A DNA stretch of 64,000 bases, from positions 8,045,001-8,109,000 of the forward strand of contig NC_063155.1 of the NCBI RefSeq assembly GCF_020921035.1, in the 5' to 3' direction. Shown piece after piece: positions 390 through 49,782 of this stretch. Position numbers and translations under genes: made by a program. Source of the DNA: Rhodamnia argentea. Taxonomy: Eukaryota; Streptophyta; Magnoliopsida; Myrtales; Myrtaceae. Below the pieces are notes generated by a model. It had not been told where the DNA came from. It worked only from the letters and a program-made list of their open reading frames with translations, and did no database searches. How positions within the stretch are numbered: position 1 is the first letter of the stretch; each line of letters opens with the position of its first letter.

Positions 390-2875
390 AAACTTGCTGA
401 CCACTCGCCAGAACTTCTTGATTTTCATCGGGATCTTGTTAGCTTGGAAGTTGCATCAAAGGTAATACTACTTTCTCATTATGAGTTATATTGGTTCAGA
501 CACATATGCCAATTTTGGTCTTCGTTTGTTGCAGATACAACTGAAATCTTTAGCTGAAGAAATGCAAGCAATTATTAAAGGATTAGAGAAGGTAAAGCAG
601 GAACTGACTGCTTCTGAAAATGATGGCCCTGTTTCGGATATTTTTAGAAAGGTATCCTCCTTTCATGTACTATGATCAGGCATGCTTTACTTACAAGTTA
701 CAATCTTTAGTAAAGATACACTTTTTTCATCCTTCTTTGCAAAGAGGGGGCACTTATTTTTCCTTTCCTTTCTGTATTGATTAATTGCTTCATCCTTATT
801 ATTTTTTAGTTAGCAGGAGCAGGTGTTATTACTTATTCCTTTTTTTCCCATGTACTTTTGCTGCATAGTTTTACATCGATGCCAGCATGCTGATGGTTTA
901 CTTTCCCTTTTTTTATCATCTATTTTTCTTGTCTGTATGTTTCTTCTAAATTTGTTGGTTAACCTTTTTTTGCCTGTAATGACCACATTCTGCTAAACTT
1001 TTTCTTCTTTTAAGCTTTGTCTAGACCTTGAAAGAATTTATTGGTGTTGCTGAGGCTGAGGTCACATCATTGACGAATTTATATTCAGTTGTGGTAATGT
1101 GCCGGTTAATTTTAGTTTGTTGATTTATGAAATGATGGCATCTGACATTGTATGGTAATGATACCCCTTACTAATGTGCAGGGAAGAAACGCAGATGCAC
1201 TTGCATTGTACTTTAATGAAGATCCAGCTCGTTGCCCGTTTGAGCAAGGTAAGCTAGTAATGCAATTTCTCGTGCATTTATTACTGCAAATTATATGTTA
1301 TCACGGCTAATTACATCCCAGGATGGTGCTTTTCAAATTGTCGGTTGTAGTGTCAGTATTTATTGGAACCTGGGAACTCATCAGTGTCCTCTTAGGAAAT
1401 CCTCAGTGTCCTCTTATCTTAGTTCCTTTGTGAAGGTTGTGGTTCAGGCTGTTGGCTGAATATTGTTGACGCAGTTTTTTGGTGGGGGCGAAGTTCATGA
1501 GGTGTTTTTGTTGTCAAGGCAATCTGCATTGTCATTGTTAAGATTGTGAATGAAAAGGCCTTGCTTATGTCAATAAACAGAATGTTGAAAAATATGTCAA
1601 TGATACTTCACTGTAAGATCGTATAGTGGAACTTTGTTAAGAGTCGGGTTGGTTATGTGAAAGGGTTGAGGATTATTAGATTAATGGCAGGTTTCCTTTA
1701 GGTGTCTGCATCGGGTGCTAGATAATTTGCAGGAGGTAACAAAGATTAAATTTTAGAAGACTATGAAGAATTTATCTTGGCTTATTTGACATTTTGTAAA
1801 ATCTGTTGCTTTATCTAGTTGCAGTGTAGAGAACAAGTCTGAAAGGAAGATATGCCGCTTGCTATTCCATTTACCTGATGAATTTCTTGGCCACATTTAT
1901 CCAATGTAGCTAGATTTAATCCCATACTTTGTTCTTTTCCAATTATTGCATATTTCTTATGGCTAAGGAAACTAGCTAATGAACAATGCCACTTGGATAA
2001 TAGTACGTGTTTCTGCAAAATAACCCAGTCATCTTTTAAGCACATCACTTCATTTATAATCTTAGTAATTGTCAAGTAATAATCACTTTGAACTGATCCT
2101 AAATGGTTAGCAACACAGATTGGCCAGATACCCCTGTGAAACAGTTCATTTGACATCCAAGCTTTGCCCAAGGTGCATTACTACCAATTTTACCACCGAC
2201 TGTCGGGCATCACCAATTTTGTTGATCATCCAACCACAACAGCCATGATTGTCAACTGGATGGCCACTGCTGAGCTATTAAGCTTCAGCTGTTGCTCTCA
2301 TTAGCCATTGGACAATGTAGTTGAGTCAGTAAACAGAGCTGCAATGACCGAAAGTCCTTAGAAGAACTAACAATAATGGGTACCAAACGTCAGCACATGC
2401 TGTTTTATGTTTTTCTAGACAAACAATATTCACGGTAGACCGGAGCCTAGATAGGAAACTTTTGTTTAATGACAAAGAACTCTTTTGCAGGTGTTAGTGT
2501 TTTCGGCAAGAAAGGAGAAAGTCTAACTAGTCTTTAGTCAGACATAACCAATTGGACTGCATAATTTTTTTTTTTTTTTTTTTTTTTGCGGACTGCATAA
2601 TTTTTTGTTGCAAGTTATTTTATAGTTGTGTTTTAATTAAATTTTTTTATTTCTGCCGATTAGAGATATTTGCTGCAGTAGTTCAACTAACTCTGTTGAA
2701 ATTGCTACATGAACAAGCAGTTACAGCAACTCTCCTTAACTTTGTGAGAATGTTCCGGCGAGCACATGAAGAAAATTGTAAACAGGCTGAACTGGAGAAG
2801 AAAAAGGCTGAGAAGGAGGCCGAAATGGAAAAGGCAAAGGGAATTAGCCTTACAAAGAAGGGTGTAAATAGCTGA
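390..2875 (+). CDS. type II formin-like protein, C-terminal exons (partial)
   Basis: End of the FH2 domain of a plant type II formin, an actin nucleator and bundler. Five exons are assembled by hand: 390-461, 535-651, 1025-1093, 1182-1248 and 2721-2875 (TGA stop). They keep frame and give 159 residues; the rest of the gene lies left of the window. Seen motifs, all typical of the end of FH2: LADHSPELLDFHRDL, a basic coiled stretch with GLEKVKQEL, TLKEFIGVAEAEV, GRNADALALYF, PARCPFEQ, TLLNFVRMFRRAHEENCKQ. A highly charged Lys/Glu tail follows. The last intron (1249-2720) is long and carries a poly(T) micro-insertion at 2566-2589 and a possible alternative terminal exon at 2491-2537. The family call is firm. 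Which paralogue it is cannot be told from this end alone, though the XXT and NEN genes further on suggest the AtFH20 clade. Confidence 0.85.
2554..2601 (-). mobile_element. poly(A) micro-insertion with 12 bp target-site duplication
   Basis: The 12-mer ggactgcataat occurs at 2554-2565 and again at 2590-2601. Between them lie only a run of about 22 T and the dinucleotide GC. Read on the minus strand this is TSD, GC, poly(A), TSD, the layout left by target-primed reverse transcription. It lies in the last formin intron. Slippage explains the T-run but not the flanking duplication. Confidence 0.6.
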
Positions 2876-4184
2876 TTGGTGACTGTTTCCCAATGTCTAT
2901 ACTGGAAATGAAGTTCCGTCAATGCAGCGGCCCTGATGACCGTTCGGCACTCTATTGCAATGACTGATGCTGCTCCTAATTGATTTGGAAGCAGATTGGT
3001 CTCATATTGGAGCAAATGACGAGTTCATTTGACCCTTGCCAGCAAAGATGAGTTCCTGACAGGGTCAATCTCCTGTCAGATCAACGATGAGTTCCCTTGA
3101 CATTTGCCAGGTCAAAGAGCATGAAGACTTAGATTTTACATGCCTGACGTGGTGCTGTTGAGCCAGACGAGCAAGTGCTGCTGTGCGAGCTGGCAATTAG
3201 ATATCTGATAAACTGAGACAAGCTTACACGAACATCAGAAGACTGTTCAGATTGGCCAGAAGAGTCATTCTCGTGTGAATTCGCGGTTAGATGGTGAAAC
3301 TTTAGTCTTTTTGGGAACGAACACTGGAAAGATAAGTTGGAGCCGGGTTTCCATCAAAAGGCCCAGTTTGGCTTCTGCTTTGACATTGGCTGGGCATTGG
3401 TTTTTTGGCACCGAGGTGGATGCCTCCCGGATGGTAGAGCACGAAGTCTGTCTGTACCATGACACTGTACAAAGCTACTGACCTACTTGTATTAGGATAC
3501 GATTCTTTCCTCGTGTAGCACAGCTAGTCCAGTATCTTTTTTCCCTTTGAGATTGTTAGGTCCGATCCCGTCGATTTAGATGTATAGCTTGTCAGGTTAA
3601 GTTAGAGAAAAGTAGAAGGCGGGATTCCTTGTGTAATTGTGAGATAACAGGGTAGGCATAGCGGTTAGCAATTGCTTTTGTCTGTCACTCAATTCATTCT
3701 ATCGTTATTAATGAAATTCAAAGGCTTCCATTCTTTTTCTTGGTCGGTGTATCGTGGATACCTTTGAAATATCGACTTGGTAGCTCTCTCTCTCCCTCTC
3801 TCTCTCTCTCTCCACCTCGCACGCACGGTTATCTTCTTATTTTGGATGCAGCAAGAGGGAATGATAAGCCTTGTTTTCTGAACAGGCAACTTTTTAAGGA
3901 TGGGAAGAGTCCTTTCCGTTTCCAAATATGCTTTTGGAATTGAAAGTAAGTGTCCCCTTATGGTATGGCTTTAAGTTGAAGTATGGTCTTGGATTGCGCC
4001 TCTGGCCTGTCCATGGTTCTGGAATTCGTGGCAAGGTATGAATTAACCGAGAGTAAAGTTAAAAAAAAAACAGCATATGCTGACTGAATCAAATTGTATC
4101 ATTTCAGCAACCAAAGAAGAAAGTGGAGCAAAATGATTTTGCTGTTGCTTCGTCGTACAGACAATCTACGACAAATTCTCAAAC
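2876..4184. other. formin 3' UTR and intergenic spacer
   Basis: Roughly 2876-3720 is probably formin 3' UTR; an AATGAA-type polyadenylation-like signal lies near 3710. Short open frames on both strands at 3265-3481 show no family resemblance. A CT-rich simple repeat covers about 3785-3813. Nothing else is recognised before the converging membrane-protein gene. Confidence 0.4.
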
Positions 4185-5303
4185 TTATCTGAGTAATTCC
4201 CTTGACATGTACAACCTTTCTTGGTAAGGATTTACACAGACTGGTCGACATATCTCCGATCTTGTCACGACTGAGTTCAGAATTGGATCTGAACTCTTCA
4301 GGGAATTGTCATAGGGTCCATCGGCAGCATCGAAAATTTGGATCTGGCAATAGAATTTATCGTTGCAATTTATGAAGTCCTCGACCTGACAGCTTCTAAA
4401 GAATGTGCAGGCGACAATTGTGTCAAGAACGATGAGGACTGAATACAAATAAGCAATGTAGCATCCCTCCAGCAAAATCCCTATGCTGAAGCTTCCTGAC
4501 GCATGATATGGCGCTATGACCCGGTAACGAAACAATGCTTCTGTCGCAGCCAGGGTGAAATTTCCAATCACTGCAAATGATAGTGCAGTTGCTCTTCTTC
4601 CCCTCATCATTAAGTAGGCCTTTATGATTGCGAGACTCCCTCCGTGTTTCTCGATCCCGGATAACACCAGTGCCAAGTTGCAGACTATGATAGTGTTTGC
4701 AATGATCATGGAGTAAACAATGGCTGCTAACATCATCGACAAAAGGGAATGCTCCAGGGTAGTCAGTTGAAATCCTTCGAGACAGTTGAAACCGAAAAAC
4801 AGGAGGAAGAATGTGGTTGCGTTGGCAGAGAGAATGACCAAGAACCCACAGACATAGGTACAGAGGAGGGGTGTGTAGGCTGACCAAAGATCAAGAGGGA
4901 GTGAAAAAGGAAGCGTCGGGTTGGCTTTGACTTGGGCAATGCGTCGAATCACGGTTGATTTGGCAATGAGGAGGAAGGTGGTGGTGAGAGGGAGTGTGAA
5001 GATGGAGGACATGACTGTCTCCGGGAGCTTCAGGCTGAGAATGGTGAAGAATCCTGATGATGTCGGGAACCCAGCAGCTCTGAAGAGAGCTTGGAAGCGA
5101 TTGTGGAGGAGTTGCGGAAGAAGAAGACTGGATGAGGAGGATGAAGAAATGAATGAGGCTTGTGAAATGAGGAATAAGATTGAGAATGGCAAAGCTAGAG
5201 ATGCAGAAATTGTGGTGAAGTATTGGTAGTTTTGGAGGAATGTGTGGACTGATCTTCTCAGAATCTTGCTCGTTCCTTCCATGATATGATTCCTGAAATT
5301 CAA
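4185..5303 (-). CDS. plant polytopic membrane protein, intronless
   Basis: An uninterrupted frame of 372 residues. Met8 (5282), which begins MEGTSKILRR, looks the better start because plant homologues of this group begin close to that motif; the first seven codons may be leader. About six hydrophobic segments are visible: after NYQYFTTIS, near LPLTTTFLL, at CGFLVILSANATTFFLLFFGF, at MMLAAIVYSMIIANTIIVCNLALVL, around ALSFAVIGNFTLAATE, and at ILLEGCYIAYLYSVLIVLD. The C-terminal 60 residues are hydrophilic and probably cytosolic. It resembles an uncharacterised plant transmembrane family, recalled as including Arabidopsis At5g61340 and At1g31130. No biochemical function is known to me. It converges with the formin and diverges from the kinase gene downstream. 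Confidence 0.75.
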   Translation of the reverse strand: MNFRNHIMEGTSKILRRSVHTFLQNYQYFTTISASLALPFSILFLISQASFISSSSSSSLLLPQLLHNRFQALFRAAGFPTSSGFFTILSLKLPETVMSSIFTLPLTTTFLLIAKSTVIRRIAQVKANPTLPFSLPLDLWSAYTPLLCTYVCGFLVILSANATTFFLLFFGFNCLEGFQLTTLEHSLLSMMLAAIVYSMIIANTIIVCNLALVLSGIEKHGGSLAIIKAYLMMRGRRATALSFAVIGNFTLAATEALFRYRVIAPYHASGSFSIGILLEGCYIAYLYSVLIVLDTIVACTFFRSCQVEDFINCNDKFYCQIQIFDAADGPYDNSLKSSDPILNSVVTRSEICRPVCVNPYQERLYMSRELLR

Positions 5304-7844
5304 AGGAGTGATTAGTGAAGATCAAGGGAGATGGGCATGAAATGGGTGGTGTTCCTTTTGAATCTTTCTCCCTGTTGGGGTTGATAAAGAGGGAGAGTAG
5401 GAGAGTTGGTGATCTTTGATTGATTATATGGGCAAAGGACTGAGTAATACTGACTAACAACTACTGATGGAATTGGAGTTGTTTGAGCAATGTGTTTGAG
5501 CAGTTTTGTGTGTATTGTATTCTTGGACTCTTTTAAGGTTGTTGCTCGTGGGGTCTGAGCAAATTGTCTTAGCTGTCTGAAATATTACACAAAAAGGCAT
5601 GAAAGAGCAGCAGCTTTTGCATTTGGTTGATGGAAAGTTACAGAGTTACTAAACCCATTTTTTAAGGGGCATTGACTTTAGTAACTTGCAGATCACAAGA
5701 GTACTTAGTGATGATATTGCTTCAGACACACTCTCTTAGCTTCCTTTCTCCAGGCCCCGGACAACTTGAGCACGATTCATAGACAGTGATTGAGGAATAG
5801 ATCAAATCCACAATTTGAAATTCAGCATATTGTAGAATGATGAAAAAGTTACTCAATTGTTTCATCTCATCTCAGAAAAAAGACAAAACGTAATCAAGTG
5901 GTGGTGATGATCATTGCAAGCCACATATCTAGTACAACTAATTAAGGGTGGTTGGCTCCCAATCCGATGCTGTTCTACCTTGGAATCATGAACCAAACCA
6001 AGATGACAAGTTCCCAGTTTCAAGGATCGGAAATCCCGACCGGATGGTCCTCGGTCTGGTTCCTGGGCGTCCAATCATTGGACCAGTCGTATTTTATTTT
6101 ATTTTTTTGTGACTGGTCGTTAATAAATTTTTCTCGTTAACAACATATTCACCGGACTATTTTTAATTGACTACATCGCGTTGTTGCTAAATATGAAAGT
6201 CATACTAAGCATATTAGGTTTAGGTTTACATTTAGGAATGTTTTTAAATAAATATATATATTATTCGGTCCCATTTGGGCGATCCGCTAACAAGACCGAT
6301 AGTAACCAGTTCCAATTTTATGGAGCCGAGAGTAGGAGCAGAGCCTTCAAGACAGTTCCTGATTCGATTGGTCCATTATGCTTGGTCCTACGGCCAATGA
6401 GTGATTACTGTTTGGGTATGACTTGTAAGCAATGAGCATATCATTGAATCTTAGCTTTCAAGAATAAAGAACAGAAGTAGATGAAATAATTGCACTCGGT
6501 GGGTTCCTCAAACTAGTGGACATACAGTATTTGCATGAGACCAAACAGTTAATCTATGGAAAGCATCCTTCACTTGTTGGCTTTACTTTTCATGACTGCA
6601 CTAATGACTTGAGCTTTATCCTTCCTCTTAAATTTGGGCTTTATATAGGAAATGGAATGATTATTACCCACAAAAGAATGTGATGGGTGGGGTTGACCAA
6701 GCATTCGGCATAGATGGAAGATTACTAAAGTTGATGAAGTATGGCTTTCACTACCTGCTTTCTTGTGCACTTAAAATTTGGCCCAAAGAATAGATTGATT
6801 TAGAAGGAATATAAAGAGAAAACCTATTGTTTGTCTTCCGATTAGGCTATGAGTAAAGTCGGTAGCTCATACAAGTTTCTTAAACTCGTATGAGCTAACC
6901 GATTAGCCCTGAAACCGGTCTGTGACCGAACCGATTGGATTCCCAGTTTCTCCTTTAGATTGGTATTGACAAAGTTGACGTTCATAGATGATAACCCTAA
7001 TAGAACACGTTAACTAATCCAAAAGCGCAATGTCGATGGAGTTCGAATAAAGTGGACCAAAAAAAAAAAAACTAAATAAGCAGAGAAACATTAGAGGACA
7101 AAGATAAGTCGATTACATACATCCTAAATCTACCCAACCCACGTTTCATAAAACTGAGTTTCGTATGATAAGAGAAAAGCTCTTACTTGGGTCGTTTGAG
7201 TGGACTATCAGCTAACTAATTTGGAAGCTTTCAAAGACGATGAAATTTCCCCTTTGACTAAGTTGGTTTGGTGGAGCATGAGAACTCTCATTTGAGATTA
7301 ATTCCTTATTATATGGTAGTTAGAGATAACTAAGGAATTTATGAGGAAATCTATTTTATTTGCTTAGGTAACGGGTCAACATTGTTGACCTCCTAGTTCA
7401 AGAGGATTTGTTGGGAATCCAATACAGAAGCAAAGAAATTAATCAAGCGAGAAATGACTAAGCCACGCCTAAAATAGTATATAGTCTTGCTCTTGTGTAT
7501 ATATGTGCTCGGCTCTTTTTGGGTATTTCTCGAGAAATTATTATTGCCGCGGGATTTTTGACGGGATATTGGATGGATGCTGACGAAGGGCAGACTTGGG
7601 TCAAGGATGATGGTTTGGAATTTTTCGTGGGACGAAAATTAATTTGGGGCAAATGCGTTGTTGGGTGTCGGTTTAAATTTTTTCATTAGACACAAATTAG
7701 TTTGTGATAAATACGTCATTGGGTATCGATTCAAGATTCCCAATGATGTTAGACCTTATTTACGCGAGCGAGGTCAATTTTCTTATGACATTCTTGCCAT
7801 TTTTTTTCTTCTCTTAACATGTAATAGAATTGGTAGGGTTGTCA
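5304..7844. other. gene-poor intergenic DNA with repeat fragments
   Basis: No gene is recognised. The first ~250 bases are presumably promoter and leader of the membrane protein. Pieces near 6000-6070 and 6925-6960 contain words such as accgg, ggttc and gaccgaacc that recur in other repeat-like stretches of the window (49.2-49.6 and 59.7-59.9 kb), so they may be fragments of one dispersed repeat. A near-perfect hairpin lies at 6858-6903. A GACC plus poly(A) run is present at 7054-7071 but without a clear flanking duplication. Confidence 0.4.
6858..6903. other. near-perfect hairpin
   Basis: The arm at about 6859-6878 (tcggtagctcatacaagttt) pairs with its inverted copy at 6882-6902, which ends aactcgtatgagctaaccga. 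The stem is about 20 bp with one mismatch and one bulge, and the loop is three bases. No gene context explains it. Confidence 0.6.
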
Positions 7845-7855
7845 CCTGCCACAAT

Positions 7856-8532
7856 TGGAGAAAATTGTCCAAAAAGTCTTAAACCTATTATACGGTGGCT
7901 AATTCAGTCCTAAACCTTTTGAAAAATTGCCAATTCAATCCTAAATATTTTGATTGTACTAATTTAACCCTAAGCCTTTTAAAGTTTTGTTAAGTTAGTC
8001 CTAAAGCTTTCGTTGAATTGTTAATATAATCATTTCGGTTCATTTTAACTGGAAATGATCCATGTGATAGCCTAGTAAACGCAAGTTGTCCTATGTGGCC
8101 CTGCCGATGCTGACGTGGATAATTTTTTATTTTCATTTTATTATTTTTTCAATGTGCCGACAAGGCTACCAGCCACAGTGAGGGTTTGTGAGTCCTTGCA
8201 AAATCGGGTGTCGTGGCACTTGCACGGTCTCTCGTTGTGGCTCGCAAGGGCTTCATCGCCTAGGGGTTGGTAGAGGTTGCCAACTCCGCTGGCACAATGA
8301 AGAAGAAAATAAAAATGGATAAAATAAAATAATAAAGAATTATTCAAGTCGGTGATATCCGGATAAAATTAACGGGAAGGACTACATTGACAATTTATTA
8401 AAATGCTTAGGAGTAAAATGACAAACCGTCAGAAGATTTATAATCAAATTGATATAATTAAAAGGTTTAGGATTGACATAATTAAAAGGTTTAGAATTGG
8501 ATTGGTTGTGGCACACTTTTTGCACAAATTTC
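7856..8532. mobile_element. non-autonomous Mutator-type DNA transposon (MULE-MITE)
   Basis: About 677 bp flanked by a perfect 11 bp direct repeat, CCTGCCACAAT, at 7845-7855 and 8533-8543, the 9-11 bp duplication length typical of Mutator-like elements. The ends are inverted: the left starts tggagaaaattgtccaaaaagt, and the right, reversed, starts ggaaatttgtgcaaaaagt. The arms run on for about 150-190 bp and contain internal repeats of the type attcagtcctaaacctttt. The core, about 8060-8340, is GC-richer and non-coding. No transposase is present. The intact duplication suggests insertion recent enough that the flanks have not decayed. Confidence 0.85.
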
Positions 8533-8543
8533 CCTGCCACAAT

Positions 8544-20983: not shown

Positions 20984-21034
20984 ATCCTGCAGGCCTTAGA
21001 CCCCCAAAAAAAAAAAAAAAAAATCCTGCAGGCC
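20984..21034 (+). mobile_element. GACCCCC-poly(A) micro-insertion with 12 bp target-site duplication
   Basis: The 12-mer atcctgcaggcc is at 20984-20995 and again at 21023-21034. Only ttagaccccc and a run of A lie between. This is TSD, short head, poly(A), TSD with no room for any element body. Confidence 0.65.
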
Positions 21035-25000: not shown

Positions 25001-28000
25001 TACAAGCAGAAACAATTTCCCCAAAAGTAGCAGCTACAATCTAAGTTAATTTTTTCTTTCAGATTAATCCTACTTTTCTCAAAAGAGAATGCAGTGAAGT
25101 TTTGAGTTCAGTAATGAAGTTTTATGTTTCATTCATCTGAAAAATAAAACTTGGTAGGCCTTGAATGTGGGCATTTCTCAATCATATTCTTGTGGTGCAA
25201 TGATTCCTCAAGAAAACTAGTTGCATTTGCGCTCCAAGTGCAATGATTCCTCCTGAAAACTAGTTGCATTTGCACTCCAAACTTGTTAAAATCATGATAC
25301 ACACAACCTTTCGCAACAAACTGAATGAATAGTGTAGGTTTATATTCAGCAACATGTCAAAACGAAGGAAGCAAATCAGGATGCTTGATGGTAAGCAGTC
25401 TCAAAAAAAAAAAAAAATAGAAGGAGAGAAGCCTCCATTTTTAAGTCAATTACTCTCCACAAAATTCTCTTGAGCATCTGATGCTGCATGTATGGCTGCA
25501 ACCTCATTCATTGTTAAGAAAGGGTGCTCCATTTTAAGTCAATTACATTCCACAATTGCCGTGACCGCGCGACATGGTTTTTGTCAGCAGGCCTTTGGCA
25601 GTTGCCGGCTATCATTAGTTCTGCCTTTTTCAGCATTTGTTACTTTTAATCACACTTGAAGTTTTGGCAGAAAATGACATCGTTTTGGGTATTGTTCACA
25701 CTTGAATTACCATCAACAAACACATAGGAGAGAGAAAATTATAGAAAAGGCCTCGTCAGTTTTAAGTTGAACAGATCAGATGGAGTTAAGAGATGGACTT
25801 CATCGCATCAATTTTACAAGGTAGAACTGGATTGACTATCTAAAAGTTTTATGACTCGATTGCATTGTCACGACAAGTTTTAGAACCCTAGGCGCACTTA
25901 TCCTTAACATTTATCGAAAATAAACTGCGCTTATGAAGTTGTTCCAACTTATTAATTGGCACCAACCCTAGATCCTTGCCCTGAGAAATGAATCAATACT
26001 TTCTACTCGAGCTAAATCATATACTGTTTACACTACATTTATCAAAAATAGACACTCACGAAGTTGTTCCAACTTATAATTGGCACTAACCCTAGATCCT
26101 TGCCCTGAGAAATGAATCAATACTTTCTACTCGAGCTACATCAGATGCCATTTACACTACAACCCAAGAAAAAATGAGGGTTCTAATCAAAGGGCAGTAC
26201 TTGAATGCTACTGCAGGTACATGCAAAGAAGTTATCAAAAGGGTGAATTTGTTGCCCTGGCTAATAGGCTTAGTATCAGCAATATTTGACATTTCTGGCT
26301 ACAAGATATAGATACAAGAACTCACCCAGAAAAGGACTTAGCATTTGGAAATCTACAAACAAAAGTATGAAGTAGCTATTACAAAATACAGGTTTCATGC
26401 AACCAAAGTTTTTAACACCTTTCTCTATGTAGTAACCGAGAGGAGAGTGGCAAACTAGATTAGTGGTCGTCCAAATGACATTACATAATACATTCCAAAT
26501 TAATGAATTTTCTCATTCCAAAATTTCATCTTTGCTAATAAAACCGAAGAATTTTTAAGGTGTTGCCGATCTGAAGCACCTTGTCCAAATTATCCCCAGT
26601 TATGACTTACAGGAACTTCCCTAAAAAGTTTGATGGAAGATGTTCTACAATTGATGACACTAAAGAGTCATCATCTTTTAGGATTTCACATAACTCCTAT
26701 AGGATCAGCAAATGAACAACGAGAATCATGTGAATCTAGACTGGATACCCATTTTAAAGATGGACTTACATCGGTTCTTTCTCCGTTCTCTTGTGAAGGA
26801 TGCACATCTTGTACCCATTCAACTTCCGCAACACGATATCTATATTATTATCGAAGAGGAAAGTAACTTAATGGATCATCCACCAAATTGAAAATTTATT
26901 CAAAAGACCACATTTTCAGAGGACTCACCCATCCTGATCCCAGGATCGTATTATGCGAAATCTACGCCTGCCCTCAACCTGCACAATTGTCTTAGTCCTT
27001 GAGATCAAAATAGATACCAATAAAAGTTAGCATAGCATTTTTCATCAAATGGGCACCAACCCATGATGAGTTGCTGAGTCGTTGGTCTAATGAAGCCAAA
27101 ACAGCTCAGAGATTATTGTTATTTTTCACACCTTCTCAATTTGTATAGAAATCAGTTAATATCTTCACTGTAATAAATTGCTCTTCCAGCAAGCCCCGTA
27201 TTTCTCTTTCTCCATCTCACAATTTGATTTTACACAAGAAACAACAGATCAATTTGCAAAGGTGTTTAAACCAGGATCGGTGTTGGGACCATGCAATTGA
27301 CATATATATCAGCAGAGATTTCTCAAAAAAGACTTTCTAAAGTAACTGTCCCAATTTGAGAAACATAAAGTTTTGTACGATTGTGACGAAGAACTGAAGA
27401 AACAGAAGATAAATTTATAGCGCAGAAAGGAGCCATAAAAGTTACTTCAATGACCTACATCAACCATCAACCTTTGGAACATCTCACTCAGTCTCATCAT
27501 TAAAATTCAGCATGGATGCAATAAAGTACGTCACTGAACTAATGCACCAATTTTTCACCTCTATAAAGAAACGCCCGTCTGGAAGTGGCTCACACCTACA
27601 CAGAATAAAGAAAATAAATATAATGACAGCAGTAAGCGATGACAACACGAAATGACAACACCAGTGAAGCTTCAATCTTAAAGACGTGATGTAGCTAGTG
27701 ACAAACTCATAAATCTTGAGAAATTGAGAGAGAAAAGAAGAAATTAAAAAGATAACCAAGTTAAAAAAACTCACTCAGTAATTTCCACTTCACAAGCAAA
27801 ATCAGCAATAGATCCAGTACCAGAATCAATTGCAACCTACATTACAGAACAATAATCAATTTCCCACTTAATCAGATGGACTAGACAGTTTGACCAAAAA
27901 AAAAAAAGATGGACTAGACAGATAGAACCAATCATAAGTTATGGAAAATACCATTCCCATCCGATGGTTCCCTTCCATTATCCTCCTCACCTGTAAACAA

Positions 28001-36542: not shown

Positions 36543-36810
36543 AAAATTCAAAGTAAATTTGTTCATGACAAAAAACAAATAAAATAAAATTTTAGAAAAA
36601 AAATAGCCGCCACATAATTTGGGTTTTAATCCGTATCGTGCGGCCTTTTCGAATCCTCTGTGGCGCAAAACGACGTTGGATTTGTCCGTCCCTTTGTCCC
36701 TAGGGTTCAAAAGCAAATGGAGCTTGTTGAATACCCCATTGAATACGGGGCTAATTCCTCATAGATATTTTCTTTTTAAAAAAATTTTTAAATTGAATTT
36801 ATTTAGAAAG

Positions 36811-37320
36811 ATTAATATCATGAAAAATCCCAAATTGATACACTAGTGACAAATTTTTTCCAAACTATTTTTTTTACCAAGAAAAACTCTAAACCGGTAC
36901 AGTTGTGACAAATTTAACCTAAACTTTTTTTTTTACCACTAAAAACCCCGAACTAGCACACCTATAATAAATTTATCCTAAAAAATTTTTTTTTATTCCG
37001 AAAAACCACTAAACCGATACACCCGTAACAAATTTGCTCTCCGTTAAATTGGATTAATACTACGAAAATTTTCAAACCGATACACCGGTGACAAACAAAG
37101 GTAAAAACCCCAAGTTAATACACCCGTCAACTGCCACATATCATACAACTTAGCAAAATAACGGTTAGATTTAACGAAAACTAACAAAGGGTAAATTATA
37201 TATTGGTTTCGGGTAAACTTATCACAAATGTACCGTTTTAAGGTTTTTTTATGGTAAAAAATAATAATTTGGATACATTTGCCATATGTGTATCGGTTTG
37301 GGGTTTTTCGTGGTATTAAC
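36811..37320. mobile_element. inverted-repeat (MITE-like) element built of ~62 bp sub-repeats
   Basis: The left end, 36811-36856, starts attaatatcatgaaaaatcc. The right end, 37320 back to 37275, reads gttaataccacgaaaaaccc. They match at about three of four positions over 46 bases. Inside the left arm a ~62 bp unit containing aaaccgatacac and gacaaattta words repeats four to five times; the right arm carries about two inverted copies. The matching point in copy B (40591-40638) lacks it, so it inserted after the duplication or was lost there. Target duplication not resolved. Confidence 0.65.
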
Positions 37321-38100
37321 ACTATCGAGAAAGAATTTCCAATTTTTGATGCACTATTTTTCTCTTAACATAAATAATTTTGTACTGAGTATGTTTGAAA
37401 AATGGTGGGAGACCCTCATTAACAAAAATTTCAATAATGTCTGGCTTAGCTCAAGAGTTTGCCACTCTTCATATTTTAAGCTTCCAGTTTTTTTTTTTTT
37501 TTATACATTTCAATGGATAAATTACTATGTTTCGCTCATTCTTGAATAACCAAGGTTCATACATCGAAATTCAAATGACGTCTCGGGCATCTATGTTATT
37601 ACGAGAGATGATAGGATAGAAGAGGAGCGGAGAAATTGAGGATATTGGTATAAGAACCACATTAACCATAAGTCATTAATAAAATAAATGGTCCGCGAAC
37701 TTTGATTCAATGTGTGATATTATTCTTCAACTTTTTTAAATTTGTGCAATGTAGTCCTCTGAGTTTTGATCTAACGTACAACGTAGTTCCTAAATTTTTA
37801 ATATGATTAATGTAGTTCTTGAATTACCGGCAAATATTCTATACAGTTTTTAAATTATATGAAAATATTTAAAAATTAAGGAACAACATCAAATTCCGGA
37901 TCAAAGTCAGAATCCATCCTTTGAGCGCCGAACGCTCAAGCCAATCATGCACCAAGACAGTCGCAAAAGGAGTCGAAGTAATCCCGAGAAGAGATTGCGT
38001 GTCGTGACTCTTTCGCCCGCACACGGCGGGATTTATGCCAGGGTTCTCCTCCACGGGGTCAATGGAAGTCAACGGCAAAGGGTTGACTTGCGTCCATGTC

Positions 38101-39545: not shown

Positions 39546-40379
39546 AGGCGATACAACCGTTGATGAGCTAGTCATCCAAAATTGCGTTCTCTCGAGATGG
39601 CAAACGTCGCCGAGACGCTGCATTCCCTATCTATCTCGTGCAAGTCTCGTGATATTTTCATACCTAGTTTAATGTTTAGTTGGAATAATATTAGTTAATA
39701 ACTTCCTCCAAAGTACGTAAACTTTTTCGACAATTTCCAATAGTTATCTAATGCAGTTTTCTACAATGGCAGAACTCATCGAGGACCACGAACAACGGCT
39801 ATTGATGGCCATAAATCACAACCATTCGACGCAAGACGGCGGTTGGTTGGCGGATATATCGATCGGATGAAATGGATTTGGTTAAGTGTTGGATGCATGG
39901 AGGAAAGGAGATGAAGTGAGAATGCAGATGGAAGACAAATGTATCGATTGAAGGCTCAAGTCGGTGGCACTCAAAGAGTTATAGGTGCCTACGGATAAAT
40001 TCGGCGTGCGATCAAGGGAATTAAAGTTATGAAGATGAGGTCATAACCATCATCAGAAAATTAAATACTTACTGTTAGGATACACGTGTGAATTGTATTA
40101 GAGAAATCGCACAGCGGATAATTGATGTGGTGTGGAGTAAAATAGCATAGTTAGCCCTCTTTTTTTGGTGAACTTTGTTGGGCTCCTTTTGTTCCGTATG
40201 TTTAGCAAAAACAAATATGTATATGTTGTAAACAGATCGCTAATTAACGCTAGATTCGCTACTCAAATTCAATTCATGTCCGAATTACCACTAAACCTGT
40301 TTGACCCAAAAAAAAAAAAAAAACAAAGAGCAATCTTTGATTTTACGATTTTGGACAACTGCCGAAAAGAGAATCTACT

Positions 40380-41520
40380 CAAATTCAAGCAAATTTGGTC
40401 CGGACAAAAATGGAAAAAGAGAAAACAGCCGCCGATCGGATTTGGCGTTTTGACCCGTTTCGCATGGCCTTGTCGAATCCTCTGCGCAACAAAACTTCAT
40501 GGATTGTTCTGTCGCTTTTGTCCTAGAGTTCGGTCAGATGCAAATGGAGCTTGTTGAATACCCTTTTGAATACGGCTAAATCCTCATAGATTAGAAAAAA
40601 AAATAATTTTTTTTCTAAGAAAAGTATTTATAAAGGATTTCGTATTTTCGATGCACAGCTTTTCTCTTAATAAAAATACATTTTGTAAATGAACTTCTTA
40701 TGTTCGTCGCGAAAAAATATGAAAGAACCAAGAATTAGAATTTGTCCTAGCGCAGCATTTGCAGTCCATGAAACGACCGAACCTCACATGCAATTAAGGG
40801 GGAAAAGAAGAAAGAACACGAGGAAAAAACACATCAAACTCTTGTTATGAACTCCGCAGGGTGAAAACATGTGCAAACACAGGGTCGTCTTGCGCTTTCC
40901 TCATAACAACAACAACCATAATAATGACATATGTGTTAGGATTCGGTGTACAACCACAACAAAATAGAGCGTAAAAACGAAAAAGAAAAATCAAAACACA
41001 AAATTTATCATAATTCACTTTTAAATTAAGGCTCACATTCAATGAGGATTTCCACTATAATTAGTGCATTGCACCTCTCTGCTATATTATTCAATTACAA
41101 GCGAAATAAAGTAAATATAACGGTAGTTATTTATGAACTCAAGCCCAATCGACTAAAAAAAAAGAGATGGGCTCAAATCATAAAGAGCTCTCCCAGAGAG
41201 CTCGAGAGCACTGCCTCCGTGAAAATCGTGCTTTTCTATCAATGGATAATACAAATCATACCCCAATAGTATGGACCCGTTCAAATGTTTGAAAGAAGGT
41301 CATGAGTTCGAAGCCTAGATCGAGCTCATGAATGAATGTCCAAACCTCCAAGAAGCCCGAAGGTCTTATCTACATGGCATCTTGGGCCTTGGCAGTACTA
41401 TATGATCGATGAGTTGGTCACCTGAAGCCGCACATCTTCCGCGAGACTTTAAATATCGCCAAAACGCCGCATCCCCTATAGAACTCGCGGGAGTCTCATC
41501 ATACTTCCGTACCTCATTTT
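40380..41520. repeat. collinear duplicated segment, copy B (compact)
   Basis: Compact partner of copy A. Just upstream, at 40302-40321, lies a TTTGACCC plus poly(A) run with no clear flanking duplication. No coding potential is recognised. Confidence 0.7.
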
Positions 41521-43943: not shown

Positions 43944-45293
43944 CTATGATCTGCTATTTCCATGTACTGGTCGGCGAATATCAAACTTGTCTACAAACTC
44001 CAAGGGAGTGACAGTTTCGTTTCGTATCCTTCTGATCTTGGGACTCAACAAGCCCCGATGACTGAACCCATAGAGCTTGAGCACTTGATTGTCTGCAAAA
44101 TTGAATGCCCTCTCCATGCTACTTAGGCACCTCTCAACTGGGTAATCCCCATAACTCCCACAAGGCTTGCAACCCACGAAATGAGTCACAAATGGCCACC
44201 TCTCGTCTCCCAAACCAGGATGATACTTTTCAATCATCTCTTCATACCGATCCACCAACCCTGCCCAATAACCGTGCAAATAGTACGAATTTTCAACAAA
44301 CACCCTATCCATCCACTGATCCTTCTGAGAAATCAGCAAGTATATCAAAGCAGACTGATCATCCGCCTCGAAAGCCGGCCTTCCTTTTAGATTAGCAGTC
44401 AAAATCTTCCCAGCCTCGTCACGGATTGGCCCCTTTGGGCCCATCGGTGCCCAAGCATCAAGCAAATCCAATGACCATTGACAATTCCTAAAGAGAAAGC
44501 TTCCAGTATTCAAAGCAATCCACGACTTCTGATCGAACAACAAATCAGGGTACCCGTGAATAACCAAATTGTAGTTAGCATACTTAGAAAGCGGGATCTC
44601 AAACACCATATCAGTGAACAAAGCATCACTGTCCATCCACCAAATCCACTCCACCTCAGGGTGTGACAACATCAATCTCCTAATCATGGGCAATTTCGCC
44701 CAATACCCAGCAAGCTCTTTATCCAAATGAGCCATATTATACACAATCTCAATCCCGTGAATCCTACAATAGTCAATCTTGTTCTTGACAGCCTTCAACA
44801 AATAATGATCCCCAATCGGGTTATCGCAAGGGTTCGGCGGGGACCCAGTTAGGAGCAAAATCCTAGGCTTACCGTTGACATAATTGGGGAACTCAGGATT
44901 GCTCTCAAGCCAATTCTTGCGGTCAGTGTCCCAATTCGAGATCTTGGGCCCCAGAGTGTAGGTGACATTGGGGTTGGCATCGGCCTCGGGCGGGTCGTAC
45001 GGGTCGATGGGGTCGGAATCGGATCGGATCTCGGCGAGGATCCGGTTCGTCTCCTCGATCAGGTTCTGGTTGACGGCGTCGGCATCGGAGCTCCCGAGGT
45101 TGCCCACGCCGATCGTGCCGCGGAGGACGAGGATCGTGACGAACCCGCACAGGAGCGTGATCTTGATGTTGTTGAACGTCTTCTGGATCTGCCGGCCCCG
45201 AGGGATTACGCGAGACGGGTGCCTGCCGTTTGTGGCCGTCGTCGGCAGCGAAGAGGAAGTCCGCTTCTGGGGCGTGAAGCTGTCTTGACCCAT
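43944..45293 (-). CDS. XXT5: xyloglucan 6-xylosyltransferase, GT34 (XXT3/4/5 clade)
   Basis: Golgi type II membrane enzyme that adds alpha-1,6-xylose from UDP-xylose to the glucan backbone of xyloglucan. Intronless, 449 residues (family about 450-460). The cytosolic N-terminus MGQDSFTPQKRTSSS is followed by RGRQIQKTFNNIK, a signal anchor at about 47-60 (ITLLCGFVTILVL), then a stem with VGNLGSSDADAVNQNLIEETNRI, which I recall as characteristic of the XXT3/4/5 rather than the XXT1/2 group. The catalytic domain has TLGPKISNWD, GDHYLLKAVKNKIDYCRIHG, WIWWMDSDALF with the DxD at 221-223, NTGSFLFRNCQWSLDLLD, FEADDQSALIYLL, and FVGCKPCGSYGDYPVERCL. All look intact. The leader carries a GAA/TTC repeat at 45535-45563. 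XXT5 versus XXT3/4 is not settled by eye. Confidence 0.93.
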   Translation of the reverse strand: MGQDSFTPQKRTSSSLPTTATNGRHPSRVIPRGRQIQKTFNNIKITLLCGFVTILVLRGTIGVGNLGSSDADAVNQNLIEETNRILAEIRSDSDPIDPYDPPEADANPNVTYTLGPKISNWDTDRKNWLESNPEFPNYVNGKPRILLLTGSPPNPCDNPIGDHYLLKAVKNKIDYCRIHGIEIVYNMAHLDKELAGYWAKLPMIRRLMLSHPEVEWIWWMDSDALFTDMVFEIPLSKYANYNLVIHGYPDLLFDQKSWIALNTGSFLFRNCQWSLDLLDAWAPMGPKGPIRDEAGKILTANLKGRPAFEADDQSALIYLLISQKDQWMDRVFVENSYYLHGYWAGLVDRYEEMIEKYHPGLGDERWPFVTHFVGCKPCGSYGDYPVERCLSSMERAFNFADNQVLKLYGFSHRGLLSPKIRRIRNETVTPLEFVDKFDIRRPVHGNSRS

Positions 45294-47050
45294 GATTGCG
45301 CCCCGCTTCTTGATCTCGGAGAATTCACAGAATTGGGCGGGGGAAGGTCATGGAAGTGTTCGTAAGCCGCGCATTTGGAATCTGTCTTCTTTTTCTTGCG
45401 AAGATAGAGAAATTCTCTCCGGGAAGATCTCTATCTGCTTTGCTCGAGGTGGATGATTAGGAAGGGAAGCGAAGGTGGGTGTATAAACCCTAGATGTAGG
45501 AAGGAGTAGTGGAGCTCATGTAGATCAACGAGAGGAGAAGAAGAAGAAGAAGAAGAAGAAGAGCAGCGTCGTGTGAGAGAGAGAGAGGCAGGTGAGTGGA
45601 AAGCTGGAGCAACATGGGGGTCCGACACCGACCGTCTTAAGTTAATTTTTTTCATTTCTTGACATCGTAATATTTCCGAAAAAAGCACGATTTTCTTTGT
45701 CCCTATTTTGGTTCTCCCCAATGTAAATCAACCCCAATCTCCCTAATTTTAATTTGGTCAGCTCGACTGGTGTTATTGATTATTCAAATAATTTTTGAGC
45801 ATATGTACGAAAAAAATATTCTGATGGGTAAGCTTTCGATTCTGCGACGAACCGTGTAAAAAATCTATCTTGTGTGTATAAGATTCATGAACTCTCTAGC
45901 GCAACATTATCTCACACGCCGCACGGAAATACAGCCGATAGTGATTTGTTGTCGATGAATAATGAGTCGATCCTGGAACAAATAATGGATGAATTTATGA
46001 TTTTTGGGTCAAAATACTAAAGAGTAGGTCGTTTTCGAGAATCTCACATCATTCGGATTCAACCCGGGTTGGGAAATCCACGGAATGGCGGCATTGCCAA
46101 CTCGAAAATGGGCCCCTTTGAGCATCTGGACAGTTGGCGCATGGCTGTCTTGTGTTGTATTTTAAAACCTTAACCAAAACAAATAATCAAATGAACGAGC
46201 CTGAATTCACACTCCTACTCGCTTTCATTGCCGGTGGGCGAAAAAAAAAAAAAACGACTCATCCATAGTCAAACGGATATGCATTTCATTCTCAAATTTC
46301 TTGAAAGTTTCAATTTTTCCATCCTCAATTTGCCGCTGAACGAGGGGGAAACTGCCAGGTGCCACTCAAAAACTGCTTCCGGGACAGAGAATGATGAAGA
46401 TAGATGGCAAGTAGGACTCCTTAACATGTGCACTGCTGGTGCAGTTGCCTCATTTCATGGGCCCTTTGGCCTTGAACAACGGTGTTATGCGGGCCTGCAG
46501 TGAAGTAAGAGAAAACACGAGCAATGAAAGGCCTAACCTGTATGCTTGCTTGCTTCGTCCAAAAGGGACAGCACAATGCAACGGAAATCCTGCAGTTCAG
46601 GTGGGGCATGATCAATTATCGGCACATTAGAATGTACTCACTAAAGCTCAACTCTTTCTTTGGGTGAATCGGACTCAAGTCGAGTATTTATTCGGGGTTT
46701 CCAGGGGAAACCTAAAAATCCGATTCTCGCCTGGATGATGCATGAATTGTCGTTTCATAAGGATAAGGAATATTTTGCTGTTTCCACAAATGCTTTGCAA
46801 CTCGATTCAGCAAGCCCCGGAGCCCTGCGGGTAGATGCTCAAACGTCAGATGAATTCATGTAAGACAGGCAAAATGAAACAGTCGGCCATACAATGTAGT
46901 GAATGTCCCATGGAGTTCAAGCACAAAATCTACGTTGACAAACCGGAATCGCACCTTAATACTTTGCAGGACCAAAACAAACATTTTTCTATCGGTTATG
47001 CGAGCTACGTTATGGAGAGGATGATGAACTGACACTATGCTGAATTGGTC
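45294..47050. other. XXT promoter side and spacer
   Basis: 45294-45590 is probably the XXT leader, holding a (GAA)n run at about 45535-45563 and a short GA tract at 45577-45588. Downstream to 47050 nothing is recognised. A poly(A) run at 46241-46254 has no GACC head or flanking duplication. Confidence 0.4.
45535..45563. repeat. (GAA)n microsatellite in XXT leader
   Basis: About nine trinucleotide units, so TTC repeats on the coding strand, roughly 240-270 bases upstream of the xylosyltransferase start codon. Confidence 0.85.
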
Positions 47051-48538
47051 CTATTTCATGCCCTTGTTGTAGCCTTTTTTCTTCTTCTTCTTTTTTTTCT
47101 TTCCTCTGGCCCTACTATTTTGCAATGGGGGCTCTTCAATCATGCATATCAAAGGCTTAACATCCTCCACCTTCGTCACTGGTTTAAAAACTTCAGTGAT
47201 ATGAGGGTTCAACACATCCTCGGAGCAGCTTAAAGTGATGCCCTTACTTGCTGCTTCATCCCAAAGCTCTCTGGCCTTACAAAAATCGCCTCCTCGACAA
47301 AGCTTTGGTACTAGAACATCATATACGGGCCCATATCCGCCCAACGAACTGCTCTTCATTCGCTCGAACAATTCGAGAGCATGATTCACTCTCTCGACCC
47401 CGCAAAGAATGCCAATGAGGTCATAGTAAAACTTATGCTCTGGCACCAACCCCTGCTCAATCATCTCATCTACCATCTTGTTACCCTTGCCGAATCTTCT
47501 GCTCAGATATAGTACTCTTGCAACAAGATAATAACTCACCCAATCTGGAGAACACCCCGACTTCTTCATTTGGTCAAGAATTTGACATGATTCCTTGACT
47601 CTCCTAGCCCTACCCAAACATGAAAGCAAAATATTGTAACTAATTGAACTAGGAATGATCATATAGGTTCTCATTTCCATCATCACATTCAGAGCTTCTG
47701 GAACGAGACCTGAAGGATTACGCTTAAGGTTTCGCTCACACAAGCATCTGAGGAAGGTGTTAAAGCAAAACAAATCAGGCATAAACCCAGCAGATTTCAT
47801 CTCCTTGATAATTCTCCTTGCTTGCTTCACATCCTCCTTCACAGACCACCCGTATAGAAGACACCTGTAGATACAAGCTTCGATGCCTATTAATTTACTC
47901 CTGTGATGCTCAACTACCCCCTCGGCCATCTTGGCATGTCCTTTGGAACAAAGCGCATTGACAATAGCCATCACTGTTGCACTGTCCTGGGGACATTTGA
48001 ATTTCTCCAAGTTCTTGAAGAGACCCAACGCCTCGCCTTGTCTCCCCAAGTTGACCAATTTTTCCGCTACTACACTATAAGTCTGTTTATCCATCACCCG
48101 GCCTTCTTTCCCGAGATCCGAAATCAGTATATCCATTGCCGTGTGGTCCTTCTTCTCTGCAAACATCTCAATTGCATAGTTAAAATCCTTATCCTCAAGA
48201 CCAGAGCCCAAATTCTCCCTAGCCCAAGAGAAGAATCTCAATAACCTCCTGGTGGGTGCTTCATCCTTGCAACGATCGATCGCTTGGGTAACGAGGGACG
48301 ACGTCAAACGACCTCTGAACTGATCAAGACTCAGTTCCAGGTCATCTAAGCCACCAATCGGGGTCGAAACTGCGTCACACAGATCCTGTAGCTCGGCCAG
48401 CGTCCGCGGGGCCAACTGCGTAGAGCATAACCGTCTATGACGCGGTTTGCAATGTCGGGCAACGCAGTATTGGCCGAGAAAGCCTTTCCATCTCGACGCA
48501 GCTCCTCTCGAGAATATCATCGAACAAGTGGTGTGCAC
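47051..48538 (-). CDS. pentatricopeptide repeat protein, mitochondrial type (At5g61370-like)
   Basis: Organelle RNA-binding P-class PPR protein, intronless, 495 residues. The N-terminus (MHTTCSMIFSRGAASRWKGFLGQY) is basic and lacks acidic residues, as in mitochondrial targeting peptides; Met7 (48520) is an alternative start. PPR-type helical pairs run from about 130 to 440: DFNYAIEMFAEKKDHTAMDILI, QTYSVVAEKLVNLGRQGEALGLF, CFNTFLRCLCERN, SYNILLSCLGRARRVKESCQIL, SYYLVARVLYLSRRFGKGNKMVDEM, FYYDLIGILCGVERVNHALELF, VYDVLVPKLCRGGDFCKARELW. No DYW or E tail. The C-terminus ends in an unusual run of nine lysines before GYNKGMK. Resemblance to At5g61370 rests on memory and on its place beside the ERULUS-like and TOC1 genes. 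Confidence 0.88.
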   Translation of the reverse strand: MHTTCSMIFSRGAASRWKGFLGQYCVARHCKPRHRRLCSTQLAPRTLAELQDLCDAVSTPIGGLDDLELSLDQFRGRLTSSLVTQAIDRCKDEAPTRRLLRFFSWARENLGSGLEDKDFNYAIEMFAEKKDHTAMDILISDLGKEGRVMDKQTYSVVAEKLVNLGRQGEALGLFKNLEKFKCPQDSATVMAIVNALCSKGHAKMAEGVVEHHRSKLIGIEACIYRCLLYGWSVKEDVKQARRIIKEMKSAGFMPDLFCFNTFLRCLCERNLKRNPSGLVPEALNVMMEMRTYMIIPSSISYNILLSCLGRARRVKESCQILDQMKKSGCSPDWVSYYLVARVLYLSRRFGKGNKMVDEMIEQGLVPEHKFYYDLIGILCGVERVNHALELFERMKSSSLGGYGPVYDVLVPKLCRGGDFCKARELWDEAASKGITLSCSEDVLNPHITEVFKPVTKVEDVKPLICMIEEPPLQNSRARGKKKKKKKKKGYNKGMK

Positions 48539-48558
48539 TTACCAGGAAGCTGAAAAAC

Positions 48559-48561
48559 GTA

Positions 48562-48593
<32 letters not shown>

Positions 48594-48595
48594 AC
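48559..48595. repeat. GA microsatellite in PPR leader
   Basis: Imperfect (GA)n tract 21-57 bases upstream of the PPR start codon, so CT on the coding strand within the presumed 5' UTR. Confidence 0.85.
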
Positions 48596-48687
48596 TCGTG
48601 GGAGTTGCGATGTTCTTTGGCTCCCTCCAAATTATTGTTTCGCTGAAAGACGTAATTGCCATCTTCCTTTAATTGTTGAATTTTTAA

Positions 48688-48736
48688 AGTAGCTTGAAGC
48701 ATTTGACCCAAAAAAAAAAAAAGAGTAGCTTGACGC
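48688..48736 (+). mobile_element. TTTGACCC-poly(A) micro-insertion with 13 bp duplication
   Basis: agtagcttgaagc at 48688-48700 is repeated as agtagcttgacgc at 48724-48736 (12 of 13). Between are atttgaccc, a run of A and ag. Confidence 0.6.
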
Positions 48737-49664
48737 AAAAATAGATTCGTGAAAAGAAATATATATATATATATATCAATAGAGGATGATCAATAATTTT
48801 CTTAATTAATTTTTCATGTAAAGTAAATATCTCACGGAGAAAGAAAATTAAAACTAACCAATTAGATAAGAATTAATATATAAGGAAATAAAAGGTCAAT
48901 TTTACGGAAAAAAAGAGAGAAAGTAAATCCATGAACATTACGCCATTTATCCTTTCGAAATGTTCATTTATGTTGGTTGTGATCGAGGAATGAATCATGA
49001 GTAACTAAGGTCGACATAAATAAAGAAAAATGTCAACATTTCTTTCCATATGATCTTATGCATATCAAGTCAACAAACGAAATACGAGTAATCGAAAATA
49101 CGAAGAAAGAAAAGTTCCTACAAATGCATTTGATTTGATTTTCATTTGCATAACCACTCATTTTATTTTTCTTTTTTGGTGCTCCGATCAAGTACTTATT
49201 AATTATGTGGTGCAATTTTAGGGTGAGCGATTGGGCCGATTCAACTCAGACCGACTCGAATCAAATCAAATCAAATCAACATTACCCAATTGGTTCTAAG
49301 ATGATTCACACGAGCACCAATTGGGTCCCCGAGTGATAACCCTAAGAAGCAACTTTGATTGGCTTGGTTTCCTAGTAAAGACGATTTTGAACGTTTGAAA
49401 TCAAATCCCGGGGAACTTTTGTTAAAAAAGAATGAGATTGAGTATGGTAACATAAACATGCAGATGGTAACCTAAAACTTTTGAAAAATAATGTGTTTGA
49501 TAGAGCAATTAAATTCAAAAGAAACAAAACTGAAAAAAAAAAATGTGCCAGTTTTCAAGTAACTCTGGAACCATTTGGTTCTAAAAAATGGAAACCGACT
49601 CCGATAGCGTTGGCCTGAAGTTCTCGCCCGAAACCGATCACGTCTAATAGTGCTATTTCTTCAA

Positions 49665-49701
49665 TCAACACTACAGATCCAAAAAAAATTCAACACAACA
49701 G
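49665..49701 (+). mobile_element. ATCC-poly(A) micro-insertion with 12 bp duplication
   Basis: tcaacactacag at 49665-49676 is repeated as tcaacacaacag at 49690-49701 (11 of 12), with atcc, A8 and t between. The A-run is short and the head differs from GACC, so this is the weakest of the six. Confidence 0.45.
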
Positions 49702-49740
49702 TGCAATTTGTAAGTAATGTAGAAAAGGAGAGATTCAAAC

Positions 49741-49782
49741 CATTTATTAATCTTTTCGACCCAAAAAAAAACATTTATTAAT
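49741..49782 (+). mobile_element. CGACCC-poly(A) micro-insertion with 11 bp duplication
   Basis: catttattaat at 49741-49751 is repeated exactly at 49772-49782. Between are cttttcgaccc and A9. Confidence 0.6.

Follow-up and report, generated by a model that had tools for sequence, protein, structure and literature searches.

Minute GACC-headed poly(A) insertions in the Rhodamnia argentea genome, very probably L1 insertions truncated close to their tail

We analysed a 64,000-nucleotide stretch of the Rhodamnia argentea genome (contig C6, 8.045-8.109 Mb; the genome comprises 346.66 Mb in 74 contigs, apparently 11 of them large), hereafter the window, together with sites and loci sampled elsewhere, which carry L numbers. 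Open reading frames (ORFs) in the window resemble plant genes, labelled by eye as a receptor-like kinase, a CIPK-like kinase, a PPR protein and a CCT-domain protein. The subject of this study is a minute poly(A) insertion, in which a target-site duplication (TSD) encloses only a short head, often GACC or GACCC at its end, and a run of A. A first-pass annotation of the window had reported six sites with an 11-15 bp duplication and three further GACC(C)-poly(A) runs without one, and all of them were found (Table 1). The duplications of the six score 8 to 15, the weakest being that at 49665, where 12 bp are repeated with one mismatch. At 48688 a duplication is indeed present but is longer than first stated (AGTAGCTTGAAGCA/AGTAGCTTGACGCA), and therefore the head is exactly TTTGACCC. 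GACC, or GACCC and longer C runs, directly precedes 7 of the 41 window A/T runs of at least 8 nt (7059, 21006, 27896, 40308, 48710, 49763 and 49845). Four GACC or GATCC poly(A) sites cluster within 1.2 kb (48688-49856), adjoining the PPR-like gene. A seventh run was flagged at 36925, with a 34-nt 'head' and a score of 10, inside a repeat stretch. This diverged repeat, with copies in both orientations at 36799-37323 and also in L002, L012 and L013 (motif like GTTAATACCACAAAAAA..CCAAAC.GATACA), probably accounts for the 34-nt 'head'. Scans of the window for tRNAs and Rfam families gave no match.

Table 1. Micro-insertions, GACC-poly(A) runs and empty paralogous sites in the window.
Feature	Position	Strand	TSD	Head	A-run	Remark
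Micro-insertion	2554..2603	-	AAATTATGCAGTCC	GC	A23	no GACC; source RNA not assignable
Micro-insertion	20984..21034	+	ATCCTGCAGGCC	TTAGACCCCC	A18	
Micro-insertion	27874..27921	+	AGATGGACTAGACAG	TTTGACC	A12	
Micro-insertion	48688..48737	+	AGTAGCTTGAAGCA/AGTAGCTTGACGCA	TTTGACCC	A13	one extra G
Micro-insertion	49665..49701	+	TCAACACTACAG/TCAACACAACAG	ATCC	A8	GATCC counting the shared G
Micro-insertion	49741..49782	+	CATTTATTAAT	CTTTTCGACCC	A9	
GACC-poly(A) run	7054..7071	+		GTGGACC	A13	no clear TSD; possibly decayed micro-insertion
GACC-poly(A) run	40300..40323	+		TTTGACCC	A16	no clear TSD; possibly decayed micro-insertion
GACC-poly(A) run	49841..49856	+		GACC	A12	no clear TSD; possibly decayed micro-insertion
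Empty paralogue of L012 repeat	37214..37323	-				single target copy, no TTTGACCC-A14
Second empty paralogue of L012 repeat	36799-36916	+				flank alignment

Patterns of head plus A10 were counted genome-wide against the same pattern read backwards. GACC-A10 occurs 4305 times against 304 reversed (14-fold) and GACCC-A10 1592 times against 45 (35-fold), the latter including TTTGACCC-A10 at 280 against 3; GACCCC-A10 and GACCCCC-A10 stand at 347 against 10 and 167 against 1, respectively. Summed over the four GACC classes, the excess comes to ~6,050 sites with A10 or more, and the shared GACC(C) head claimed for the window extends across the genome. Duplications were scored in a 314 kb sample consisting of the window and loci L002-L072 minus the 30 selected central sites, a sample that is not random, 40 kb of it being arbitrary 10-kb stretches. 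A score of at least 10 was reached at 18 of 241 runs of A8 or longer, against 3.0 when downstream flanks were swapped between runs; several of the 18 resemble tandem repeats (28-38 nt between copies). GACC+ heads precede 7 of these 18 runs and 19 of the 206 runs scoring below 8. Among 3360 random positions in sampled sequence, a score of 10 was reached at 0.68%. The first-pass annotation had allowed that heads and duplications might be no commoner than in controls; both are clearly in excess.

The TSDs were characterised at the first 68 consecutive GACCC-A10 places on contig C1 (including L009-L016). A score of at least 9 was found at 35 of the 68, against 1.25 expected with swapped downstream flanks. 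Heads measured 1-14 nt at 33 of these 35 sites (mode 8, mean 8.1, standard deviation (sd) 2.2): one head of 1 nt, two of 5, two of 6, five of 7, eleven of 8, five of 9, five of 10, and one each of 12, 14, 44 and 49 nt. The lengths of head and A-run are uncorrelated (r 0.10, n = 33), and the sd is 3.3 for A length and 4.1 for the total. The poly(A), for which the search required A10 or more, averages A14-15 and adjoins the downstream TSD copy. The first two TSD bases are A in 79% and 84%, with T in 53% at -2 (n = 43), a looser pattern than TTAAAA; the endonuclease target is of the TT/AAAA type that marks insertions by the L1 clade of long interspersed elements (LINEs). No mismatch was seen in 34 of 57 TSD pairs, which suggests that many insertions are young. 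Moreover, 19 of the 68 sites, all scoring below 7, keep an A-peak 15-17 nt before GACCC, the mark of a duplication start; because this peak persists, many of the low-score sites are probably older copies. The sequence logo of the heads in this sample reads TTN followed by GACCC, the base before GACC being variable. The GACCC-A sites L010 and L081 face in opposite directions on C1, at 2011365 and 2012514, with ~1.15 kb between them.

Among 30 TTTGACCC loci, 13 scored at least 8 with an earlier scorer and 13 at least 9 with a later one, and 7 of the former 13 have TTTGACCC itself as the whole head. Of the first 20 GACC-A10 sites, 10 score at least 9, with heads of 1, 5, 6 (three), 7 (four) and 9 nt. 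Of the first 12 GACCCCC-A10 sites, two of which (L198 and L199) represent the same sequence, four reach this score, with heads of 10-15 nt. Counted from GAC, the head starts at a median of 3 nt upstream for GACCC (n = 43), 2.5 nt for GACC (n = 10) and 4.5 nt for GACCCCC (n = 4). The 5′ end lies ~2-5 nt before GAC whatever the C count, so that the stop follows the template sequence more closely than it follows cDNA length. Truncation within a few bases of the tail, as first proposed, is in fact stricter than supposed, head length being nearly constant and anchored to GAC.

L1 copies were sought with the LINE zinc-binding family zf-RVT, which gave 150 scored matches among 907 candidates. An A-run directly follows GACC or GACCC in 7 of 30 zf-RVT loci, one of which, L060, is doubtful: the L1 reading frame continues past its GACC-A13 (~2517), which is thus possibly itself a micro-insertion that landed in an L1. 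In a second set of 36 further L1 3′ regions, picked for a longer form of the zf-RVT match, GACC+ or GATC+ stands right before the A-run in 15 (L155 being doubtful); other ends are GAC, GAT and GACCG, and four regions have no A-run of at least 6. Termini include TTTTCGACCC-A14 (L047), TTTCCGACC (L044, L135 and L143, with TTTCCGACC-A14 seen) and TTCCTGACC (L147 and L167). The 49741 head shares its last 11 nt with L047 (CTCTTTTCGACCC-A14), the head at 20984 is comparable to the C-rich terminus of L166 (TTTTTTGACCCCCC-A15), and that at 49665 may be compared with the TTTTTCGATCC-A10 of L148. Over 22 of the 23 listed termini (the list includes L060 and L155), T makes up 82% at -3, -4 and -5 before GA, the positions at which heads start. 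The heads match in sequence the 3′ termini of L1 LINEs in the same genome, many of which have the form T-rich-N-GACC(C)-A(n). Only 5-12 nt of the terminus is retained as a rule, and therefore the exact parent of an insertion cannot be named. A single source RNA ending in TTTGACCC, as the first-pass annotation had it, is not supported: the base before GACC and the number of Cs vary, matching the diversity of L1 termini, and many related L1 sources are the best reading. Judged from the sampled sites, the genome-wide counts suggest thousands of such L1 micro-insertions.

RVT_1, zf-RVT and RNase H (RVT_3) domains were found in both GACC-type copies scanned, L054 and L055. RNase H-bearing plant L1s are reportedly known from work by Smyshlyaev in 2013. 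In 20 of 33 L1 3′ ends, some of them near-identical (the 20 include, for example, L054, L055, L065, L142 and L150), 19-31 nt separate the ORF2 stop codon from the A-run, and in such L1s the 3′ untranslated region (UTR) is nearly absent; the remaining 13 have a longer distance or a frame open through the A-run. AATGAA or AATAAA is present near the end of 22 of 34 L1 3′ ends. In a second L1 type (L050, L052 and L056), L050 and L056 end in ...ACTTACCTTACC(C)-A(n), and RNase H was not found in L052, the only CTTACC-type copy scanned. CTTACC-A10 occurs 1106 times genome-wide against 17 reversed, two of the sites lying 27 bp apart (C1:7902562/7902589), and a longer CTTACC-type terminus, with up to 2 mismatches, 463 times against 1. 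This second L1 may make micro-insertions too.

A profile of the L1 3′ end (34 ends, 130 nt) was run on 122 sampled sites, a fair test for the 110 whose upstream sequence reaches 150 nt or more; the other 12, all GACCCCC sites, have ~60 nt. Two sites matched (L009 and L129), both among the 110 testable. In a leave-one-out trial from which relatives of at least 85% identity were also removed, the profile recovered 32 of the 34 L1 ends; the two it missed are L060 and L155, both doubtful as L1 ends. Ordinary L1 copies of greater length account for a few sites, which make up a small minority of the GACC and GACCC samples. BLAST of the 500 bp upstream of 30 TTTGACCC sites found no common body except one 38-nt match between L009 and L021, and the BLAST matches of TTTGACCC loci to L1 (L009, L017, L021 and L032) are scattered pieces, none reaching the head. 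A recognisable L1 body is thus absent at nearly all testable sampled sites and homology alone cannot class them; a truncated copy need not have one. The duplications at 35 of 68 sites and the profile matches at 2 of 110 bear out the earlier view of LINE-type target-primed insertion with almost no body copied.

Other origins were considered and set aside. A short interspersed element (SINE) was rejected on the lack of an RNA polymerase III promoter body, on heads of mostly 5-12 nt and on the negative tRNA and Rfam scans of the window. A processed pseudogene was rejected since there is no mRNA-derived body, the heads match L1 termini and the 500 bp upstream of the 30 sites is unshared but for the one 38-nt match. 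A tRNA, 5S, snRNA or SINE source of the heads themselves seemed unlikely; the L1 termini fit, and the window gave no tRNA or Rfam match.

For an empty-site test the flanks of 67 insertions were joined and compared with the sampled sequence. L012 (TTTGACCC-A14 between AATACCACAAAAA and AATATCGCAAAAA) sits in a repeat whose other copies read like GTTAATACCACAAAAAACTCC, with no insert and no second target copy. This empty site was found in five alignments at five places, two in the window, two in L013 and one in L002, and these paralogous sites carry one flank copy, not both copies without the poly(A). Support is weaker for an empty site of L179 (L017, L048). We rejected L087/L011, where both copies have the A-run, L081/L010 and the window insertions, where the locus matched itself, and L132/L120, where the match consists of the poly(A) and heads.

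Two GACC-A8 sites on the same strand, separated by 8-34 nt, were found 35 times against 1 reversed, with ~2-3 estimated by chance (assuming ~8,000 sites). In L026, L132 and L195 two different heads are separated by copies of one duplication, an arrangement to be expected if a target is recreated by each insertion. From their sequence, L195, one of the four GACCCCC sites scoring at least 9, and L132, a GACCC site, are read as double insertions, the second copy having landed on the repeat of the same target.

The GACC-headed sites, with their duplications, poly(A), AA starts, heads identical to L1 termini, near-absent bodies and one empty site, are very probably extremely 5′-truncated L1-clade insertions in which target-primed reverse transcription aborted at the edge of a U-tract before the terminal GACC. 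In such a scheme the L1 endonuclease would nick the target just before an A-starting sequence, giving TSDs that start AA. The L1 reverse transcriptase would prime on the poly(A) of its own RNA and copy the terminal C2-5, A and G, and copying would usually halt within ~2-5 nt, on entering the U-rich tract that adjoins these bases upstream. Once this short cDNA had been attached to the opposite side of the staggered break, the product would read TSD - TTNGACC(C) - A(n) - TSD. The enzyme would presumably be that of the RNase H-bearing L1 lineage with a 19-31 nt 3′ UTR, and the stop may come from a weak rU:dA hybrid, from annealing of the A-ended cDNA to the T-ended target, or from both. Of the bases at the last two TSD positions, 51 of 114 are T, compared with 175 of 557 at internal positions (p = 0.003), and the first base of the head is T in 34 of 54.

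Several observations weigh against this interpretation. A U-specific stop is not proven, because T at the head start is no commoner than in L1 termini at that place, and minimum free energy folds of seven GACC-type and three other-type L1 3′ ends have no common stem, so that a hairpin block at 8 nt was rejected as its cause. The samples come from one chromosome, except for part of the 30 TTTGACCC loci, and a clear TSD is lacking at roughly half of those sampled (33 of 68 GACCC-A10 sites score below 9). Among the head classes, swapped-flank controls cover GACCC-A10 and GACC-A10, and the latter, in which 0.8% of pairs scored at least 9, is small (380 pairs). A low-powered test on short sequence, which finds 11 of 32 known ends, flags 5 of the 122 sites as L1-like, namely L009, L185, L189, L198 and L199. 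Three of the 12 GACCCCC sites are thereby flagged, L198 and L199 with one and the same sequence and L189 strongly, with a clear resemblance to the end of L1 copy L054; L009 and L185 are the two flagged among the other 110. L023, L078 and L171, which have a TSD score below 7 and no profile match, carry an AATAAA/AATGAA signal as at the L1 end. The 49-nt head of L115 weakly resembles the same L054 (17 of 1000 shuffles were equally good), and it is only suggestive that L115 links micro- and longer copies through it. Lastly, the head GC of site 2554 is explained by no L1 terminus.

Much of this evidence also bears on what else could have produced the sites. The same L1 insertion could have been stopped by a roadblock on the RNA, be it a ribosome terminating at the ORF2 stop codon, a protein bound there, or folding of the 3′ end. 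A stop codon 19-31 nt from the poly(A) in most of the ends, and a near-constant head anchored to the template, speak for this; however, a ribosome footprint of the usual dimensions would leave ~14 nt and not 7-8, target-primed synthesis takes place in the nucleus, and the folds of the seven L1 ends share no stem that would end 8 nt from the tail. We consider a roadblock unlikely. It is more doubtful still that the lineage's RNase H makes an early cut in the RNA:cDNA hybrid and so releases the template after ~20-25 nt of cDNA. The domain is present in L054 and L055 and was not found in the one CTTACC-type copy scanned, as this would have it, yet an early cut predicts a constant total cDNA and the total varies more than the head or the A-run, a comparison confounded by later slippage of the A-run.

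Two further explanations dispense with aborted L1 copying. A distinct non-autonomous retroposon with a short RNA of its own, a kind of micro-SINE, would account for the near-constant head size and for a recognisable L1 3′ end at so few testable sites. Nevertheless, L1 termini are diverse in the same ways as the heads (the base before GACC, the number of Cs, GATCC) and there is no body to hold a promoter, and we judge such an element very improbable. Growth of microsatellites by replication slippage, next to a chance GACC and between chance flanking repeats, has in its favour that A-runs are common and that about half of the sampled sites show no clear duplication. It is contradicted by the 35- and 14-fold excess of GACCC and GACC before A10, by the number of TSDs over expectation and by the empty paralogous site, and we give it almost no credence.

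L1 5′ truncation, TSDs and poly(A) are textbook features. The micro-insertions share with 5′-truncated L1s of mammals and plants, as generally known, the A-starting endonuclease site, a TSD of ~10-17 bp, the poly(A) and the retained L1 3′ terminus. They differ in a truncation that is nearly constant at ~2-5 nt before GAC, in the near lack of intermediate lengths in the sample and in numbering thousands of sites. A poly(T) insertion in an exon of human NF1, attributed to severe truncation, is alike in that almost only the tail was inserted (PMC3219598); it is a single human event of unassigned source, whereas here there is a genome-wide family with source-specific heads. In Lepidoptera, microsatellite families are described as seeded by RTE LINE 3′ ends (PMC2887409), which are likewise truncated LINE copies with simple repeats, but those copies keep LINE coding sequence and 3′ UTR where only 7-8 nt remain here. 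L1-mediated retrocopies in dicots (PMC4838847) have a similar TTAAAA-like target, poly(A) and TSD; their templates are gene mRNAs, in contrast to the L1's own, hardly copied, 3′ end. No description of a uniform 7-8 nt class was found in the passages cited here, or among the papers listed by a literature search by title or abstract start, which left subscription journals mostly outside. We therefore regard as apparently new both the abundance and a micro-length that is nearly constant and anchored to the template, L1 5′ truncation itself being known.

We tentatively propose, as a possibility rather than a likelihood, that an RNase H-bearing plant L1 lineage with a near-absent 3′ UTR has a built-in terminal stop, at which most germline integrations abort. 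Such a lineage would leave thousands of TTNGACC(C)-A(n) 'micro-retroposons' per genome, which record the primed RNA and can recur at a target. The sites are, as first supposed, easily mistaken for microsatellites. Homology alone recognises 2 of the 110 testable sampled sites as L1, and estimates of L1 activity in such a genome would be too low, because standard repeat annotation would probably call the sites mononucleotide repeats. Ohshima's review of plant L1 lineages and 3′-end recognition leaves the choice between stringent and relaxed recognition to experiment (PMC3747384). Because the junction and the last bases of the RNA are kept, the micro-insertions are a large natural archive of the places where L1 copying begins and of the RNAs on which it does so, and this archive bears on whether recognition in plant L1s is stringent, for the L1's own 3′ end, or relaxed, for any poly(A). 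Moreover, with the stop point so nearly constant, the long-standing question of what causes L1 5′ truncation can be tested directly in vitro.

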